A stretch of DNA of 61,812 nt, from NCBI GenBank assembly GCA_937870635.1, contig CALMZP010000099.1, positions 1 to 61,812 of the forward strand, read 5' to 3'. Source of the stretch: an uncultured Acidobacteriota bacterium. GTDB taxonomy: Bacteria > Acidobacteriota > Thermoanaerobaculia > Gp7-AA8. The position numbers were made by a program, and so were the translations under genes. Within the stretch, counting starts at the first letter, position 1; every line of letters starts with the position of its first letter. Below, in pieces: positions 19,037-41,176 of the stretch. The notes beneath the pieces were generated by a model. The model did not search any database. It saw only the letters and a program-made list of their open reading frames with translations, and was not told where the DNA came from.

Positions 19037-19522
19037 GTGGAACGCTACTGCTCGAACTGTCGCGCTGAGATCCCGCGGCGCGAAGAGGTTTGTCCCGCTT
19101 GCGGAACGTTTGCAGGCGAGGTGTTCGACGGGAAACTTCCCGGGCGCCGGCGACGCTTCCGATGGATCTTCGGGTTCCTGGCGATAGCCGGCATCACTGG
19201 GGCAGCGGGGATGATGCTGCTCCAGCGCCGGGCGCAACCGACCGAACTGACGACACCGCGGCCGGTCGCGGTCGTGACGGACCGCCCTGGCGGCTCGCGT
19301 CGCGCCGCCGGCGCCGTGGTGAACGAGGCGGAGGCAATTCGTCTTGTGCGCCGGCATCTCGTGGCGAAAGGGATCCGCAACGAGTGCATCGCAATCTCGA
19401 GCCAGGGCGTACGGGGCAAGGAGTACCGGCTGACAGCTGTCGACAGCTGCGAGCAAACGCGCCTCGGGCGATTCGTCGTGGACGGCCGGACTCAGGGCGT
19501 TCGTTCGGCGGGCGCGCGCTAG
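19037..19522 (+). CDS. Zinc-ribbon membrane protein, unknown function
   Basis: Translation from the GTG at 19037 gives 161 residues: an N-terminal zinc ribbon (CSNC at about 5-8 and CPAC at 19-22), a basic linker, one transmembrane helix (about 42-60), and an extracytoplasmic domain with EAIRLVRRHLVAKG and two Cys residues that could form a disulphide. The layout suggests a membrane sensor with a cytoplasmic metal site. It ends head-to-head with the Ser/Thr kinase gene, overlapping its stop by 4 bases. Confidence 0.7.
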   Translation: MERYCSNCRAEIPRREEVCPACGTFAGEVFDGKLPGRRRRFRWIFGFLAIAGITGAAGMMLLQRRAQPTELTTPRPVAVVTDRPGGSRRAAGAVVNEAEAIRLVRRHLVAKGIRNECIAISSQGVRGKEYRLTAVDSCEQTRLGRFVVDGRTQGVRSAGAR

Positions 19523-20775
19523 CGGTTGATGGCCCTGCGAATGCGGCGCAGGAGCTCGCGTGGTGTGATGTCTTTTTCTGCAGGGCTGCGCCGGCGGCGC
19601 GACCGCTCTGCGATTTCCTGCGCGGCGCGGTCGCGGCCCTCCTGTGCGGCGACACTGTGAGGATAGCGATCGAGGTAAGCGCCGTAGCCGCGGAGACTCT
19701 CCTCGTACCTGCCCTCATTGAAGAGCGCATCGGCCGCGTCGAGCGCGCGGCGCTTTTCTTCGAATTCCGCGAGCTGTGCGGAAGGGATCGTCACGGTCGG
19801 GCTCGGATCGATTCGGGAGGCGATGATGACGATCGGAATCGTACTCGCCGCAATCGCTGTCGCAATCACGAGCGCTGCCGTACGCGGAGCGAGACGTGGC
19901 GCCGGCTTCAGCCGGCGATTCTTCGCGGGCGAGGTGGCCGGCGCTCCACTTTCGCGGATCAGGCCCTCGACTCGTGCGAGCGCCTCGTCGGTGGACGGAC
20001 GGGCCGCGAGGTCCTTTTGAAGGAGCTGTGCGACGAGATCGCCCAGCGGTCCCTCTGCGCGCGGCGGTTCGGCGCGGAGGATGTTGTGGAGGATGACCGG
20101 GATTTCATTCGCGGCGAACGGCTTCGCTCCGATGAGCATCTCGTGCAGCACGACGCCGAGCGAGAAGAGATCGGAACGGGGCGAGATGGGTGCGCCGGTC
20201 ACCTGTTCGGGCGACATGTAGTTCGGTGTTCCGACGAGCGATCCGGCGACGGTCAGCGATGACTGCTCGGGACGGGCAATGCCGAAGTCGGCAATCTTCG
20301 CGCTGCCGTCGTCCGCGATGAGGATGTTCGCAGGCTTGATGTCCCGATGGACGATGCCGTTCGCGTGAGCGTAAGAGAGACCGCGAAGGATGTCGCGAGC
20401 GATGCGCAGTGTCGCATCGAGGGGGACTCCCCGCGGCTTGTGGCGATTCATGAGATCGAAGAGCGTTTCGCCGTCGACGAGCTCCATCGCCAGGAAGGAG
20501 ATGCGCTCGTCCTGGTAGCCCGCTTCGTACAGCGTGACGATATTCGGATGATGAAGCAGGCCGCCGACCTCGGCCTCGCGCTGGAGCCGGACGAAGAACT
20601 CGTGAGCCGACGTGCTGTCCTCGAAGTTCCGTTCGGTGAGGTGGATCACTTTCAGCGCGACGCGGCGGCCGATGCGGGTGTCACGCGCCAGATAGACGGT
20701 GCCGATCGCACCGCGCCCCAGGGGCCGCTCGATCTCGTAGTGTCCGATCGTTCGCGGTATTTCCGCAACACTCAT
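19519..20775 (-). CDS. Membrane Ser/Thr protein kinase (Hanks type) with C-terminal TPR-like tail
   Basis: The 418-residue protein has a complete kinase domain at about 12-270: Gly loop GRGAIGTV at 20-27, Lys42, HRDIKPAN with Asp145, DFG at 163-165 and the GTPNYMSPEQ activation segment. One transmembrane helix follows (about 299-320), then an extracytoplasmic helical tail resembling a TPR (ADALFNEGRYEESLRGYGAY) and a basic end. Its ATG overlaps the stop of the upstream MshEN-like gene (ATGA), so the two are likely produced together and may work in one signalling route. Confidence 0.93.
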   Translation of the reverse strand: MSVAEIPRTIGHYEIERPLGRGAIGTVYLARDTRIGRRVALKVIHLTERNFEDSTSAHEFFVRLQREAEVGGLLHHPNIVTLYEAGYQDERISFLAMELVDGETLFDLMNRHKPRGVPLDATLRIARDILRGLSYAHANGIVHRDIKPANILIADDGSAKIADFGIARPEQSSLTVAGSLVGTPNYMSPEQVTGAPISPRSDLFSLGVVLHEMLIGAKPFAANEIPVILHNILRAEPPRAEGPLGDLVAQLLQKDLAARPSTDEALARVEGLIRESGAPATSPAKNRRLKPAPRLAPRTAALVIATAIAASTIPIVIIASRIDPSPTVTIPSAQLAEFEEKRRALDAADALFNEGRYEESLRGYGAYLDRYPHSVAAQEGRDRAAQEIAERSRRRRSPAEKDITPRELLRRIRRAINR

Positions 20776-21461
20776 TCGCGATGTAGAACCCGCGAGAGCA
20801 CGGCATCAATTGCGTCGAGTTTGCGCTCGAGTTTGTCGATTGCCTTCGCAAGTGAGGCCACCTGATGCTCGATACGGTCCAGTTGCGACGGCTCTGCCGG
20901 AACATCGGGGCGTGGCGTGAAGATCTGAGTGCGCGATCCGGGACTCTCGTCGCCGACGGCGAAGGGCTGACGATGCGAGAAGAGCAGCGTCTCGGATCCG
21001 AACTCGAAGGGGGCCGGTTCCGCGGAGATCCGGTCCTTTGGATAGACGGCGTCGAGCACCTGAACCAGGTCGCTGTACCGCGCGATGACCGGCCGGATTT
21101 TCATGCCGGTGGCGATGTGCAGCGCGTCGAGAGCGCGCCGATCGAGCGGGTCGATCGTCGCCACGATGAGCTCATCGCCGTCCATGGCGATCGGCACCAC
21201 TTCGTATTCGCGCGCGAGCGCCGCGGGAACGCGTGAGGCCAGGGCTCCGGCTTCTTCCGCGGGAAGCGGATCGACGAGGGGGAAGCCAGTCGTCTTCGCC
21301 ATCCACTCCGCGAGACGCGCTTCGTTCAGGAGGCCCAGGTCGATCAGCGTCGGCGCCAGGCGCTTCTTGCGCACCTCTGCATCCCGCTGCGCAACAGCGA
21401 GCTGCATCGGCGATAGTGTTCGGGTCTCGACGAGGAGGTGTTCGAGGGATTCAGAGTTCAT
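20772..21461 (-). CDS. MshEN / GspE-N-like domain protein coupled to the Ser/Thr kinase
   Basis: From the ATG at 21461 (a TTG at 21473 is also in frame) the product is 229 residues. Residues about 15-130 form an MshEN-type domain as found at the start of PilB/GspE ATPases: KKRLAPTLIDLGLLNEARL, then FPLVDPLP, and ARYSDLVQVLDAVY at its end. MshEN domains of type IV pilus and type II secretion ATPases bind c-di-GMP through an RLGxxL...Q motif; here the Gly is Ala and the Gln is not conserved, so binding is uncertain. The C-terminus is a coiled coil. The ATPase domain is absent. Confidence 0.75.
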   Translation of the reverse strand: MNSESLEHLLVETRTLSPMQLAVAQRDAEVRKKRLAPTLIDLGLLNEARLAEWMAKTTGFPLVDPLPAEEAGALASRVPAALAREYEVVPIAMDGDELIVATIDPLDRRALDALHIATGMKIRPVIARYSDLVQVLDAVYPKDRISAEPAPFEFGSETLLFSHRQPFAVGDESPGSRTQIFTPRPDVPAEPSQLDRIEHQVASLAKAIDKLERKLDAIDAVLSRVLHRE

Positions 21462-21502: not shown

Positions 21503-21607
21503 GTTTTCACCACGGCGCATACAAAGAGCATAGAGAGGCACAGAGACCATTCCCCCCGGGCTTTCTCCGGGTGTCTCTATGCTCTCTGTGTCCTCGGTGG
21601 TGAAACG
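21503..21607. repeat. Long imperfect inverted repeat (TTTTCACCAC ... GTGGTGAAAC)
   Basis: Left arm 21503-21546 contains TTTTCACCAC and AGAGCATAGAGAGGCACAGAGA; right arm 21573-21607 contains TCTCTATGCTCTCTGTG and GGTGGTGAAAC. The arms pair with several mismatches around a C/G-rich loop. It fills the spacer between two divergent genes, where a promoter for each would be expected. Period-7 structure is not present. Confidence 0.8.
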
Positions 21608-22914: not shown

Positions 22915-23658
22915 TCACGCCTCCCATCTCGGTTCAGGAGTCTCCTCGGCCCGCTCGACGCTGACCTCGGCGAATCGCCGGATGAGCCGGCGCTCCTCGG
23001 TGGTCCCTTTCAGGTAGGTCTCACATAATTGCTCGACGTGGTCGGGGGGCTCCGTCGCCAGGACCGTAAACCCATCCTCAGGTTGTTCCGGCGATCGGCT
23101 CCACTTCTTTTCCCACCGGCGGTTGGCGATCAGGGTGCAGCGGGTGTATCCGCGATCGACCGCCACTTCCGCGGCGGGGATGTATCGCTGCGATTTCCTC
23201 TGCGACGGATCGATCCCCGCCGAGGCAACGACGCCGGACCGGAACACGGGCATGTTCTTTTCCGTGACCGGCCCGATGCCGCGCGCGTTCGCGACCTGTT
23301 CGGCAAGCGACCGCGAGACGATCGTCGCGACCATCTCGCGAAGGACGACGGCTGCGTCGCCCGCGTACTCGACGAACGAAAGGCCCGATTGGTAGACAGT
23401 CGTTCCTTCGTCACCATGTGCGAAGCGATGAACCCGGCACGACATGACCATCGCTTCGACCGCCACCTCGTTACCGAGCCACTCGAAGCGGAACCGCGCC
23501 TTTCGCCCGAGCTCGAGGCGCACGAAATGCTCGATGCGCGCGCCGGCATCGGTGATGTCGAGGATCACCGCGCCGGTCGTCCCGAACCGGGCGATCAGAC
23601 CGCGGCTGAGGAGGATGCGTTGTTTCTTACGTCGTTCCGGACCATTTTTGCGGGACAT
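22915..23658 (-). CDS. PilZ domain protein
   Basis: The 247-residue protein begins with an RRKKQR motif, the arginine cluster that binds c-di-GMP in PilZ domains, followed by a PilZ-like barrel (ITDAGARIEHFVRLELG, then a KARFRFEWLG strand). The usual D/NxSxxG is changed to DITDAGARIE. The second half (about 120-247) is not recognised and contains basic and acidic helical segments. Likely a cytoplasmic c-di-GMP receptor of unknown output. It converges closely with the small gene ending at 22911. Confidence 0.75.
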   Translation of the reverse strand: MSRKNGPERRKKQRILLSRGLIARFGTTGAVILDITDAGARIEHFVRLELGRKARFRFEWLGNEVAVEAMVMSCRVHRFAHGDEGTTVYQSGLSFVEYAGDAAVVLREMVATIVSRSLAEQVANARGIGPVTEKNMPVFRSGVVASAGIDPSQRKSQRYIPAAEVAVDRGYTRCTLIANRRWEKKWSRSPEQPEDGFTVLATEPPDHVEQLCETYLKGTTEERRLIRRFAEVSVERAEETPEPRWEA

Positions 23659-24806: not shown

Positions 24807-25145
24807 ATGAACAGCGCAGACCGCCGCCGATATCCCCGCATCAACCTCTCCCAGCCGATTCGCGGCTCCGTGGGCGCGGCGCGCGTATACGTACTCGATG
24901 CGTCAGTTGGAGGGATTCGTATTGCGCATCAGGTGAACCTTCCCGAGCCCGGCGAATTCTGCCGCGTCGAGGTTCCGACCGACCTCGGTCCGATCAAGCT
25001 CGATTGTGAAGTCGTTCGCACCGTGCCCGAACGCGCCGTCTATCACACCGGCCTGCAGATTCTCGCCGCCGATCACCAGTCGGCCGAGCGGTTGCGGAGC
25101 ATGTGCGGCGCCGCCGCTGCGCCGAGGAAAGAGCACGACAACTGA
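24807..25145 (+). CDS. Single-domain PilZ protein
   Basis: Starting at the ATG at 24807, the 112-residue product is essentially one PilZ domain: DRRRYPRI (arginine cluster) at 5-12, VLDASVGGIRIAH (the D/NxSxxG loop) at about 29-41, and a terminal strand-helix region (YHTGLQILAADHQSAERLRS). This is a classical c-di-GMP binding set. The open frame upstream to 24207 is antisense shadow of the phosphatase gene. The 3' end runs directly into a 7-base repeat hairpin. Confidence 0.85.
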   Translation: MNSADRRRYPRINLSQPIRGSVGAARVYVLDASVGGIRIAHQVNLPEPGEFCRVEVPTDLGPIKLDCEVVRTVPERAVYHTGLQILAADHQSAERLRSMCGAAAAPRKEHDN

Positions 25146-31454: not shown

Positions 31455-34076
31455 TCACTTCAAGCGCGCGGTCCAGTTCGAAACGACGACCGCGTTCGGC
31501 GATTGCAGTTCCGTCATCGTGTTCACCAGAAACCGCTGGCCGTCTGGTGAGACGTCGAAAGCTCTCGCCTGGAGACGTGGGGTGATCGCGAAGAGTGCTT
31601 TTGTCTGGCCGATGGTCACGTCTTCTCCGGTGTGCTCGATGGCGACGGACGTGATCCGGTTGAGCAGGTCGAGATACAGGATCTCGCGGCCATCGTGATT
31701 CCAGCGCGGCAGCATTCCGCCCGTCGCGGAGATCTGCCATCTCTGAGTTGGATCGGAAGACGACATCACAAAGATCTGGAACTGCCCGTTCTGGCTCGAC
31801 TGGAACGCAATGAGCTTCCCGTCAGGCGAATACTCGGGGGCAGCTTCAACGCCGGCTTCCTGCGTGAGCACCTCCGGTGTGCTCTTCGGCTGGATCGGGT
31901 AGCGGAGGATCTTTGCCTGACGGTTCTCGGCGAGAAGGTATTTCCCATCCGGCGAAACGCTTCGCACCAGAGGGTACTGCACCGTCTCGGCGAGCTCCGT
32001 ATCGCCTCCGCCCGACACACGACGGGCCCTGATGGTTCCTTTGGCGTTGCTTGCTACGTCGAAGTAGATCGTCGATCCGTCAGGTGAGAAGGCGGCCGTG
32101 CCCGCCCACGCCTGGTTGAGAGGAAATCGCGTGCGCGTTCCCCGCGCGTGATCGAGAACCCAGATCTCGCGCTGCGGGTCGCCGAGGGAAACTGCGATCT
32201 TGTCGCCCTTCGGCGAAAGCTCGATATCCCAGTACGACGCCGGCTCGGCAACGACGCCGAGATCCTTTCCGCTGCGATCGATCCAGCGCAGTGTCGAAAG
32301 GGCTGCCACGCGGCCGGTGTGGTAGACGAGCAGCCCGGTCTCACTCGCGGAGACGGCACCGCGCCAGATGCCTCCATCGTTGAGCGCATTGTTGGCGATC
32401 ACCGCGGGCTCTCCCTCGAACACTCCCGTCTCCGACATGCGCTGCGCCATGAGGGTCTGATCGCGCGCGAAAAGCAGATACCCGGACGCGTAGATGGCGT
32501 TCGAAGTCGCTTTCAGCAGGAGGCGGGGCTTCCCGCCTTCGGTCGATGCGACATAGATCCCGTTCTCTCCACCGGTGGGAGCCTGATGGTTCGCCGCAAG
32601 ATAGAGGAAGTGTTTCCCGTCCGGCAGAAACCACGGCCAGCGGTGGGTCGAATGCGTGGACGGCTCGAGCACAGTTACCGGAACGGGCTCACCACCGGTC
32701 GAGCGTACGCGGAAGATCGCATTCTGGGTGTCCGCCGTGAAGATGATCGTTCCGTCCCTGCTCCACGAGCCTCCCCGCGCCGCGGGAGCCTGAACGATGG
32801 TGACCGGCGCTCCACCCGACACATCGACGCGCTTCATCGATCCCAGCGCGAAGAACCCGATGTGCCGGCTGTCAGGTGACCAGAAGGGGAACGACCCCCC
32901 TTCGGTGCCACTGACCGGTTTCGCCTCGCCCGTGGCGATCGTCCGGAGCCAGAGCTGCGTCGTCGCCGCGGCGGCCACGGAGTAAACCACCATCGTTCCA
33001 TCCGGAGAGACCACGGCCGCACCCGACTCGTCGCCGACCGCGTTGAACCGGGTTCCTTCGGGTTCGGAGATGTCGAAAACAGCAGTCTGTTCTGCTTTGC
33101 GCCAGGCTTTGGAGTAGAGCCATCCGGTGGCGAGAAGTCCGATCGCGAGCGTGGCAGCCAGCGACCACGCCAGCCGTTCGCGCGATCGCTGCCGCGCGAC
33201 CGTCGGTGCCGCCACTCCGGCCTGCGACCCGACCTCGGAAATCCAGCGCAACTGCTCTGCGACGTCGTGCGCGCTCTGCCAGCGATCGTCGGCCCGTTTG
33301 GCCAGGCACCGGGCGACGACATGTTCGAAGGCGGGCGGCGTGAGCGGCTGGATCGATGCGAGCGGTTTCGGATCCTGCGAGACGATCGCCGCGATCAGCG
33401 ATGTCTTCGTCGTGCCGTCGAATGCGCGCCGGCCGGTGGCCATCTCATACAGGAGCGCGCCGAGGGCGAAGATGTCGGTGCGAGGGTCGGCCTCGAGCCC
33501 TTCGAGCTGTTCCGGAGCCATGTACTGGAACGTCCCCAGGATCATTCCTTCTTTTGTCAGAGGCTTGTGTTGCGTTGCGCCATCGGCGCCGACGTCGATC
33601 GCCGAGTGTTTGGCGAGCCCGAAATCCAGCAGCTTCGCACCCGAGTGGGTCAGCATGATGTTCGCCGGCTTCAGGTCGCGATGCAGAATTCCTGAGCGAT
33701 GCGCGCGGTCGAGCGCCTCGGCGATCTGCGATCCGAAGCGGAACACCTCGCTGAGAGGAAGCGGCCCGCGTGCGATGCGGTCGGCGAGGGTCTCACCCTC
33801 CAGCAGCTCCATCACGAGATAGCTCGTGCCCGAGTCCTCGCCGATGTCGTGCAGCCTGCAGATGTTCGGATGGTCGAGCTGCGAGATCGTCTTCGCCTCG
33901 CGCTCGAACCGGATTCGAAACTGCGCGTTGTCCGCGAACTCGGCCGGGAGCACCTTGATGGCGACGGTGCGATCGAGCCGCGTGTCACGAGCCCGAAAGA
34001 CTTCGCCCATGCCTCCGGCGCCTATGCGCGCAAGGATTTCGTACGGGCCAAGCCTGCTGCCTGTGGAGACGTCCAT
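31455..34076 (-). CDS. Ser/Thr protein kinase with C-terminal TolB/PD40-type beta propeller
   Basis: The 873-residue protein starts at ATG 34076. Kinase domain about 8-275: Gly loop GAGGMGEV at 19-26, Lys41, HRDLKPANI with Asp134, DFG at 151-153. A transmembrane helix (about 308-328) follows, then a propeller of repeated SPDG/WSPDS/SRDG blades (for example VVSPDGTMVVY, FWSPDSRHIGFF, WNHDGREILYLD). Kinases with such PD40/TolB-like extracytoplasmic propellers are a hallmark expansion in Acidobacteria (family knowledge). The propeller probably senses an extracellular ligand or partner. Confidence 0.95.
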   Translation of the reverse strand: MDVSTGSRLGPYEILARIGAGGMGEVFRARDTRLDRTVAIKVLPAEFADNAQFRIRFEREAKTISQLDHPNICRLHDIGEDSGTSYLVMELLEGETLADRIARGPLPLSEVFRFGSQIAEALDRAHRSGILHRDLKPANIMLTHSGAKLLDFGLAKHSAIDVGADGATQHKPLTKEGMILGTFQYMAPEQLEGLEADPRTDIFALGALLYEMATGRRAFDGTTKTSLIAAIVSQDPKPLASIQPLTPPAFEHVVARCLAKRADDRWQSAHDVAEQLRWISEVGSQAGVAAPTVARQRSRERLAWSLAATLAIGLLATGWLYSKAWRKAEQTAVFDISEPEGTRFNAVGDESGAAVVSPDGTMVVYSVAAAATTQLWLRTIATGEAKPVSGTEGGSFPFWSPDSRHIGFFALGSMKRVDVSGGAPVTIVQAPAARGGSWSRDGTIIFTADTQNAIFRVRSTGGEPVPVTVLEPSTHSTHRWPWFLPDGKHFLYLAANHQAPTGGENGIYVASTEGGKPRLLLKATSNAIYASGYLLFARDQTLMAQRMSETGVFEGEPAVIANNALNDGGIWRGAVSASETGLLVYHTGRVAALSTLRWIDRSGKDLGVVAEPASYWDIELSPKGDKIAVSLGDPQREIWVLDHARGTRTRFPLNQAWAGTAAFSPDGSTIYFDVASNAKGTIRARRVSGGGDTELAETVQYPLVRSVSPDGKYLLAENRQAKILRYPIQPKSTPEVLTQEAGVEAAPEYSPDGKLIAFQSSQNGQFQIFVMSSSDPTQRWQISATGGMLPRWNHDGREILYLDLLNRITSVAIEHTGEDVTIGQTKALFAITPRLQARAFDVSPDGQRFLVNTMTELQSPNAVVVSNWTARLK

Positions 34077-34121
34077 CAAATGGTGTGCGCGCGGATTATC
34101 TCATTTACCATGCGCGGGACC

Positions 34122-40445: not shown

Positions 40446-41176
40446 AACGACCCGACCTCCGCACCGTTGCCCGCTATTTCCTCTCTCCTCCTCTTGCCGG
40501 CTTCGCCAACGGCCGTGCCGTGCGCATCGTCGACCTCTCCATCAAGGGCGCGCGCATCGAGCTCGTGGAGCAGTTCACGCCCGGCGAATCGGTCTTCCTC
40601 GTGATCGTCTCGAATCGCGGGGAGATCACCGTCCCCGGTACCATTCTCTGGTGTGAGATCGATACCCTGCTGATGGAGAACATTCACGATCGCTATCTGG
40701 CAGGCGTCGCCTTTGCGCATGCCAGCACGACGGTCGATGCACTTCTCGATGAGCTCTGCGGACACGATTGTGCCTATCGCATCGAAGACTTCCGCGATCA
40801 CGATCGCTATCGCGTGACCGCGCCGCTCACCGGAAGCCTCGGTGAGATCGCTCCCGTATCCATCCTCGATATCTCCATTCGTGGGGCGCGGATCGCCAGC
40901 GAAGGGAAGATCCCGACCGGCGCAGGAGGTCAGCTCCGGTTCCAGGTCGACGACGAGAGCGGTCCGACCGATGTCTACGCGAAGGTCATGTGGAGCACAC
41001 CCTCGATCTCCGGCGGCGAACAGGCCGGCCTGCTGGTCAGCGGCGAGGACGAGGCCATGCGCCGCGCCATCCATCGCCTCTGCGTTCGAGGAGAGGCAAG
41101 GATCGACCTCGACTCGCTGCGCCGAAAATTCGATTCGATGCGCACGCACTCCGAGCGGCAGCACGTCGCCGGCTGA
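40442..41176 (+). CDS. Tandem PilZ-domain protein
   Basis: The 244-residue protein starts at a GTG overlapping the acyltransferase stop (GTGA). It holds two PilZ-like modules: residues about 5-110 with VRIVDLSIKGARIELVE, and about 115-220 with HDRYRVTAPLT and ILDISIRGARIASEG. Each has the D/NxSxxG-like loop (DLSIKG, DISIRG); the arginine cluster of the first is weaker (KRPDLRTVARYF). It is probably a c-di-GMP receptor tied to the upstream enzyme. Confidence 0.8.
   Translation: MKRPDLRTVARYFLSPPLAGFANGRAVRIVDLSIKGARIELVEQFTPGESVFLVIVSNRGEITVPGTILWCEIDTLLMENIHDRYLAGVAFAHASTTVDALLDELCGHDCAYRIEDFRDHDRYRVTAPLTGSLGEIAPVSILDISIRGARIASEGKIPTGAGGQLRFQVDDESGPTDVYAKVMWSTPSISGGEQAGLLVSGEDEAMRRAIHRLCVRGEARIDLDSLRRKFDSMRTHSERQHVAG

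Follow-up and report, generated by a model that had tools for sequence, protein, structure and literature searches.

Our study identified, in an uncultured member of the Acidobacteriota, two overlapping genes that encode a stand-alone MshEN-domain protein (P0001) and a membrane Ser/Thr kinase (P0002). The chances appear about even that P0001 has diverged into an MshEN docking protein that no longer binds its ligand, and that it is co-produced with P0002, a likewise diverged kinase that it recruits or regulates. Both genes lie within the window, that is, the whole stretch of 61 812 nucleotides that was analysed (Table 1). P0001 has an MshEN fold in which the residues of the c-di-GMP-binding motif are largely replaced, and the protein probably does not bind this second messenger, as judged from its sequence.

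The gene pair

The junction and coordinates given in a first-pass annotation, in which a kinase gene was joined to an MshEN-like gene by ATGA, proved exact. Its description of the kinase as a membrane protein was borne out by one hydrophobic segment, and its MshEN-like domain call by a PF05157 match well over the cut-off. The two domains do not form one polypeptide but are encoded by two ORFs in an operon-like arrangement with a 4 bp overlap, and the GC content by codon position in both ORFs is as in real genes. A 42 nt imperfect inverted repeat (window 21505–21605, 79 % complementary, 17 nt loop) is positioned between the P0001 gene and a divergent beta-lactamase-like gene, and resembles a terminator or some other intergenic repeat.

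Table 1. Features of the P0001/P0002 gene pair in window coordinates
Feature	Position	Strand	Basis
P0001 (229 aa), first of the two genes; stand-alone MshEN-domain protein	20772..21461	-	ORF, Pfam
P0002 (418 aa), second of the two genes; membrane Hanks-type Ser/Thr kinase	19519..20775	-	ORF, Pfam, tree
ATGA overlap, P0001 stop/P0002 start	20772..20775	-	Sequence
Pfam MshEN (PF05157) match in P0001, MshEN_C-like alpha/beta subdomain	21033..21287	-	Pfam, structure model
MshEN motif stretch of P0001	21291..21449	-	Motif model, alignments
Long C-terminal helix of P0001, possibly coiled coil, residues 193–226	20784..20885	-	Structure model
P0002 kinase domain; G-loop GRGAIG, VALK, HRDIKPAN, DFG and GTPNYMSPEQ all intact	19975..20739	-	Pfam, motifs
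Lone hydrophobic (transmembrane) segment of P0002, residues 300–319	19819..19878	-	Hydropathy
C-terminal helical hairpin domain of P0002, TPR-like, common to the family's other kinases	19591..19782	-	TPR-like with weak E-values

P0001 matched PF05157 over residues 58–142 with 73.4 bits (cut-off 23.1, E 1.5e-20). It had no match to the T2SSE ATPase domain (PF00437), and the protein ends after its helix. In a single-sequence AlphaFold2 model the MshEN_C subdomain was of high confidence (pLDDT about 90), the N-terminal helical part was of low confidence, the linker was disordered and the C-terminal helix was long. The top matches in structure searches with this model were exclusively MshEN, GSPII, XpsE, PilB and GspE N-domains; the model aligned best with those of XpsE, PilF GSPII, PilB and MshE, and the top Foldseek match was Thermus PilF GSPII-A (9g1w). 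A tree built from 75 MshEN domains grouped P0001 with stand-alone MshEN proteins (support 97/86), although this placing is unsure because its branch is very long (2.49, compared to a tree median of 0.06). No close homologue of P0001 was found among relatives, class and phylum genomes or GTDB r220, the best matches being about 30–33 % identical.

P0002 matched the Pkinase family (PF00069) with 186.9 bits (cut-off 31.7, E 6e-55), and its G-loop, VALK lysine, HRD and DFG place it among Hanks-type kinases. Against the model for PknB/Stk1 PASTA kinases (NF033483) it scored 243.4 bits, below the equivalog cut-off of 450, and Pfam matched no PASTA repeats in it. For its C-terminal domain, structure prediction gave a helical hairpin (pLDDT 84.5); GTDB r220 yielded one 37 % match to this C-terminus, at a locus that has neither a kinase nor an MshEN gene. 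Phylogenetic inference placed P0002 in one clade (support 99/95) with membrane kinases from eight other genomes of the family and a second copy from its own genome (C97). These kinases (466–503 aa) share its layout of kinase domain, one membrane segment, TPR-like hairpin and basic tail. P0002 is nevertheless the outlier of the clade, evolving faster (branch 0.72, compared to a tree median of 0.1), and is its sole copy adjoining an MshEN gene. The branch lengths agree with P0001 and P0002 each being a diverged paralogue. P0002 was also considered as a PD-T4-6 phage-defence kinase, but the PADLOC matches were confined to the kinase domain, as would be expected of any Hanks kinase, and no defence genes were recognized among the neighbours examined. 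A second, larger Ser/Thr kinase of 874 aa (window 31455–34079, minus strand) has no MshEN neighbour.

Loss of the c-di-GMP motif

The c-di-GMP motif of MshEN domains is RLGxx(L/V/I)(L/V/I)xxG(L/V/I)(L/V/I)xxxxLxxxLxxQ, occurring twice with a 5-residue linker (PMC5013675). Over this two-motif stretch P0001 aligned without gaps to the N-domain of Vibrio cholerae MshE (5HTL), residue n of P0001 corresponding to n+4 of MshE. This fixes the register of the motifs, with which the multiple alignment agrees. The two proteins share domain order and fold; unlike MshE, P0001 lacks an ATPase domain and has lost ligand-contacting residues in both motifs. The changes relative to MshE are R9>S5, G11>E7, G18>R14, L29>Q25, Q32>A28, G40>A36, L58>M54 and Q61>T57. 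Thus S-L-E replaces RLG in motif I, RLA replaces it in motif II (residues 34–36), both ligand-contacting glutamines are lost (A28 and T57) and one core leucine has become glutamine (Q25). Arg9 of MshE, which is needed for c-di-GMP binding (PMC4624772), corresponds to the serine in P0001. Across a set of 76 MshEN sequences, one row of which is a second copy of P0001, P0001 kept 9 of 16 key motif positions and every other sequence at least 12. The NCBIfam model of the c-di-GMP motif (NF053729, 53 residues, curated cut-off 38 bits) gave P0001 23.6 bits, whereas another stand-alone MshEN protein of the same genome passed with 63.2. P0001 was rejected as a c-di-GMP receptor on this failure and on the motif losses.

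The RLA noted by the first-pass annotation is therefore real, but it understates the loss, since alignment with biochemically tested MshEN domains showed both repeats to be degraded well beyond it. The annotation's suggestion of c-di-GMP sensing is contradicted by this motif evidence and by a tested non-binder, Thermus PilF GSPII-A. This domain, with Q>H, Q>R, R>S (the motif II arginine) and G>A (giving RLA), does not bind c-di-GMP; measurable binding by its truncated subdomain needed both glutamines and the arginine restored, and the alanine in RLA costs it about tenfold in affinity (PMC12002112). P0001 and PilF GSPII-A both carry RLA in motif II and have both lost the terminal glutamines, with more motif I losses in P0001. 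GSPII-A belongs to a traffic ATPase whose two other GSPII domains do bind, whereas P0001 is a separate protein.

It is consequently considered quite unlikely that a modified pocket of P0001 still senses c-di-GMP, or some other nucleotide, and so switches the kinase as a split form of an MshEN/Ser-Thr kinase association. In its favour, c-di-GMP signalling is abundant in the genome (28 GGDEF and 9 PilZ matches), a PilZ gene lies 3.4 kb from the pair and motif II retains R34, L35, L50 and G43; an association of the two domains is also on record (PMC5013675). However, P0001 is changed at both glutamines, the motif I arginine, both RLG glycines and one core leucine, it falls under the NF053729 cut-off, and PilF GSPII-A fails to bind with comparable or fewer losses.

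Conservation of the pair

The MshEN side was surveyed in 60 relatives, 149 class genomes and 396 phylum genomes, all outside the pair's own genus. The 80 MshEN loci fetched (401 kb) include many assembly ATPases and about 25 stand-alone MshEN genes, some of the latter flanked by only 1.5 kb of sequence; there is overlap between a few of the loci. When checked by phmmer and profile searches, none of the 80 had an intact kinase gene nearby. Conversely, no MshEN gene was found, even by profile search, near any of nine P0002-related kinases (one from the same genome), some of whose loci end at contig ends. This was the neighbourhood survey that the first-pass annotation had called for. The annotation had staked its idea on the pair being conserved in other genomes, and the pair was indeed absent from all the others sampled; because these include none of the same genus, the idea is not cleanly overturned. 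Furthermore, as P0001 has no close homologue in our search, the absence of the pair reflects an absent P0001 orthologue rather than a lost linkage.

In the nearest case, from another family of the same class (L077:2996-6732), a 280 aa MshEN gene is followed on the same strand by a dehydrogenase-like gene and then by a degenerate membrane kinase. With 26.8 bits this kinase stays below the Pkinase cut-off (31.7), and its HRD could not be recognized by eye; the gene order also differs, and the arrangement is not orthologous to P0001/P0002. MshEN proteins of 730–1130 aa were considered as possible kinase fusions, but no kinase was present in them and one that was checked is a traffic ATPase. A 1127 aa protein (L071:1721-5104) has an internal MshEN domain and no further Pfam match.

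With the pair unconserved in the genomes examined, evolutionary support for a partnership is nil. This counts in favour of the two genes being chance neighbours, two diverging paralogues (one a stand-alone MshEN gene, the other a kinase gene) that share a transcript but no functional link, to which we assign a real but minority probability. The genome has 43 kinase matches and 6 MshEN matches and, on assumed gene number and strand and overlap frequencies, some MshEN gene would lie beside some kinase gene by chance in about 12 % of cases (one in eight), whereas the same strand, a kinase directly downstream and a 4 bp overlap together would arise in about 0.6 %. Overlaps of 4 bp are frequent in compact operons, which favours coincidence; two signalling-type proteins in one operon are usually linked, which argues against it.

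The fast divergence of the pair also fits relaxed selection or decay. The very long branch of P0001 and the wholesale loss of its motif residues would suit a gene in decay, functionless and with only a remnant of the fold. We nevertheless consider this very unlikely, as the 229 aa frame is uninterrupted by any stop or frameshift and has normal codon-position GC. The MshEN_C part also remains recognizable, and its 73 bits and pLDDT of about 90 suggest that the fold has been kept under selection.

Other stand-alone MshEN and PilZ proteins

Like P0001, the stand-alone MshEN proteins L037–L046 and L136–L152 are separate proteins of about 200–310 aa with an N-terminal MshEN domain. Unlike P0001, they keep the motif glutamine and glycine almost throughout and have no intact kinase neighbour. 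The C-terminal helix of P0001 is collinear with that of other stand-alone MshEN proteins, but the match is no better than background.

Within the class there is a conserved stand-alone MshEN family (209–268 aa by longest frame), whose gene in five genera directly follows gpsA and is accompanied by cysK and a cystathionine-lyase-type gene. Its gpsA-linked members, which have a C-terminal helix, include L040:4808-5518 on contig C19 of the same genome as the pair, which is the protein that passed NF053729, together with L037, L038, L039, L041, L042 and L044–L046. Nearly all have asparagine for the motif I arginine and asparagine or lysine for the turn glycine. On motif grounds, this family is a good candidate for a c-di-GMP receptor. 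The MshEN proteins L136–L152, mostly from one family of the phylum (f39), are likewise stand-alone; they measure about 300 aa, their RLG...Q motifs are near-perfect and their linker is rich in proline. Proteins of this type occur in many species of one genus.

Three further observations concern PilZ. The PilZ gene near the pair (window 24819–25106, plus strand) encodes a domain whose RRYPR and DASVGG make up a motif of the c-di-GMP type. At 40517–41083 (plus strand) lies the gene for a tandem PilZ protein. A 247 aa protein at 22915–23658 (minus strand) has an N-terminus (RKKQR...DITDAGARIEH) that appears PilZ-like by eye, with no Pfam match.

A proposed docking protein for a membrane kinase

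A docking role for P0001 is the most economical reading, by analogy with motif-less MshEN-like docking surfaces. In Xanthomonas, the PilB N-domain is devoid of the motif but still binds PilZ, and probably PilM as well (PMC8389850). EpsE/GspE N-domains, which were among the fold matches, have been solved with EpsL/GspL (2BH1, 4PHT). The PilB ND0-ND1/PilZ structures (7LKM/7LKO) and EpsE/GspE thus resemble P0001 in having an MshEN-like fold without the motif. These N-domains, however, are fused to secretion or pilus ATPases and their partners are PilZ, PilM or GspL and no kinase, whereas P0001 is separate.

We infer a physical partnership between P0001 and P0002, along with the docking role, oligomerization, topology and target set out here. 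The two genes would form one small operon, supplying their products in a fixed ratio. P0001 would have kept the MshEN fold and lost c-di-GMP binding, and may act as a protein–protein docking adaptor in the manner of the ligand-free MshEN-like domains of Xanthomonas PilB and GspE/EpsE, with its C-terminal helix probably making it oligomeric. It would bind the cytoplasmic part of P0002 or bring a target to it, and P0002 would phosphorylate a specific partner upon engagement of its TPR-like C-terminal domain on the other side of the membrane. The first-pass annotation had suggested a secretion-derived sensor as one option, and a docking module of such origin may indeed be tied to the kinase.

A bolder version, in which the ligand-free MshEN protein is a dedicated adaptor of a membrane Ser/Thr kinase, tying secretion- or pilus-type docking to phosphorylation without c-di-GMP and perhaps with PilZ or a pilus machine as partner, seems doubtful. 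The nearby PilZ gene is only a lead to the machine that P0001 may serve.

The annotation also knew of no standard pathway with an MshEN–kinase pair. Ser/Thr protein kinase is in fact listed among MshEN-associated domains by Wang et al. 2016 (PMC5013675). What they describe are domain associations; the arrangement reported here is distinct in its split, overlapping genes and degraded motif.

In summary, the P0001/P0002 pair is a lineage-specific curiosity, found in one genome only among those sampled, and is of modest interest for that reason. Pfam MshEN matches should not be taken as c-di-GMP receptors, and the stand-alone MshEN protein downstream of gpsA in the same lineage is pointed to as a better-supported candidate for such a receptor. 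If the partnership is true, MshEN, a domain known as a c-di-GMP receptor and for the docking of ATPases, would have been reused as a separate adaptor of a Hanks-type kinase.
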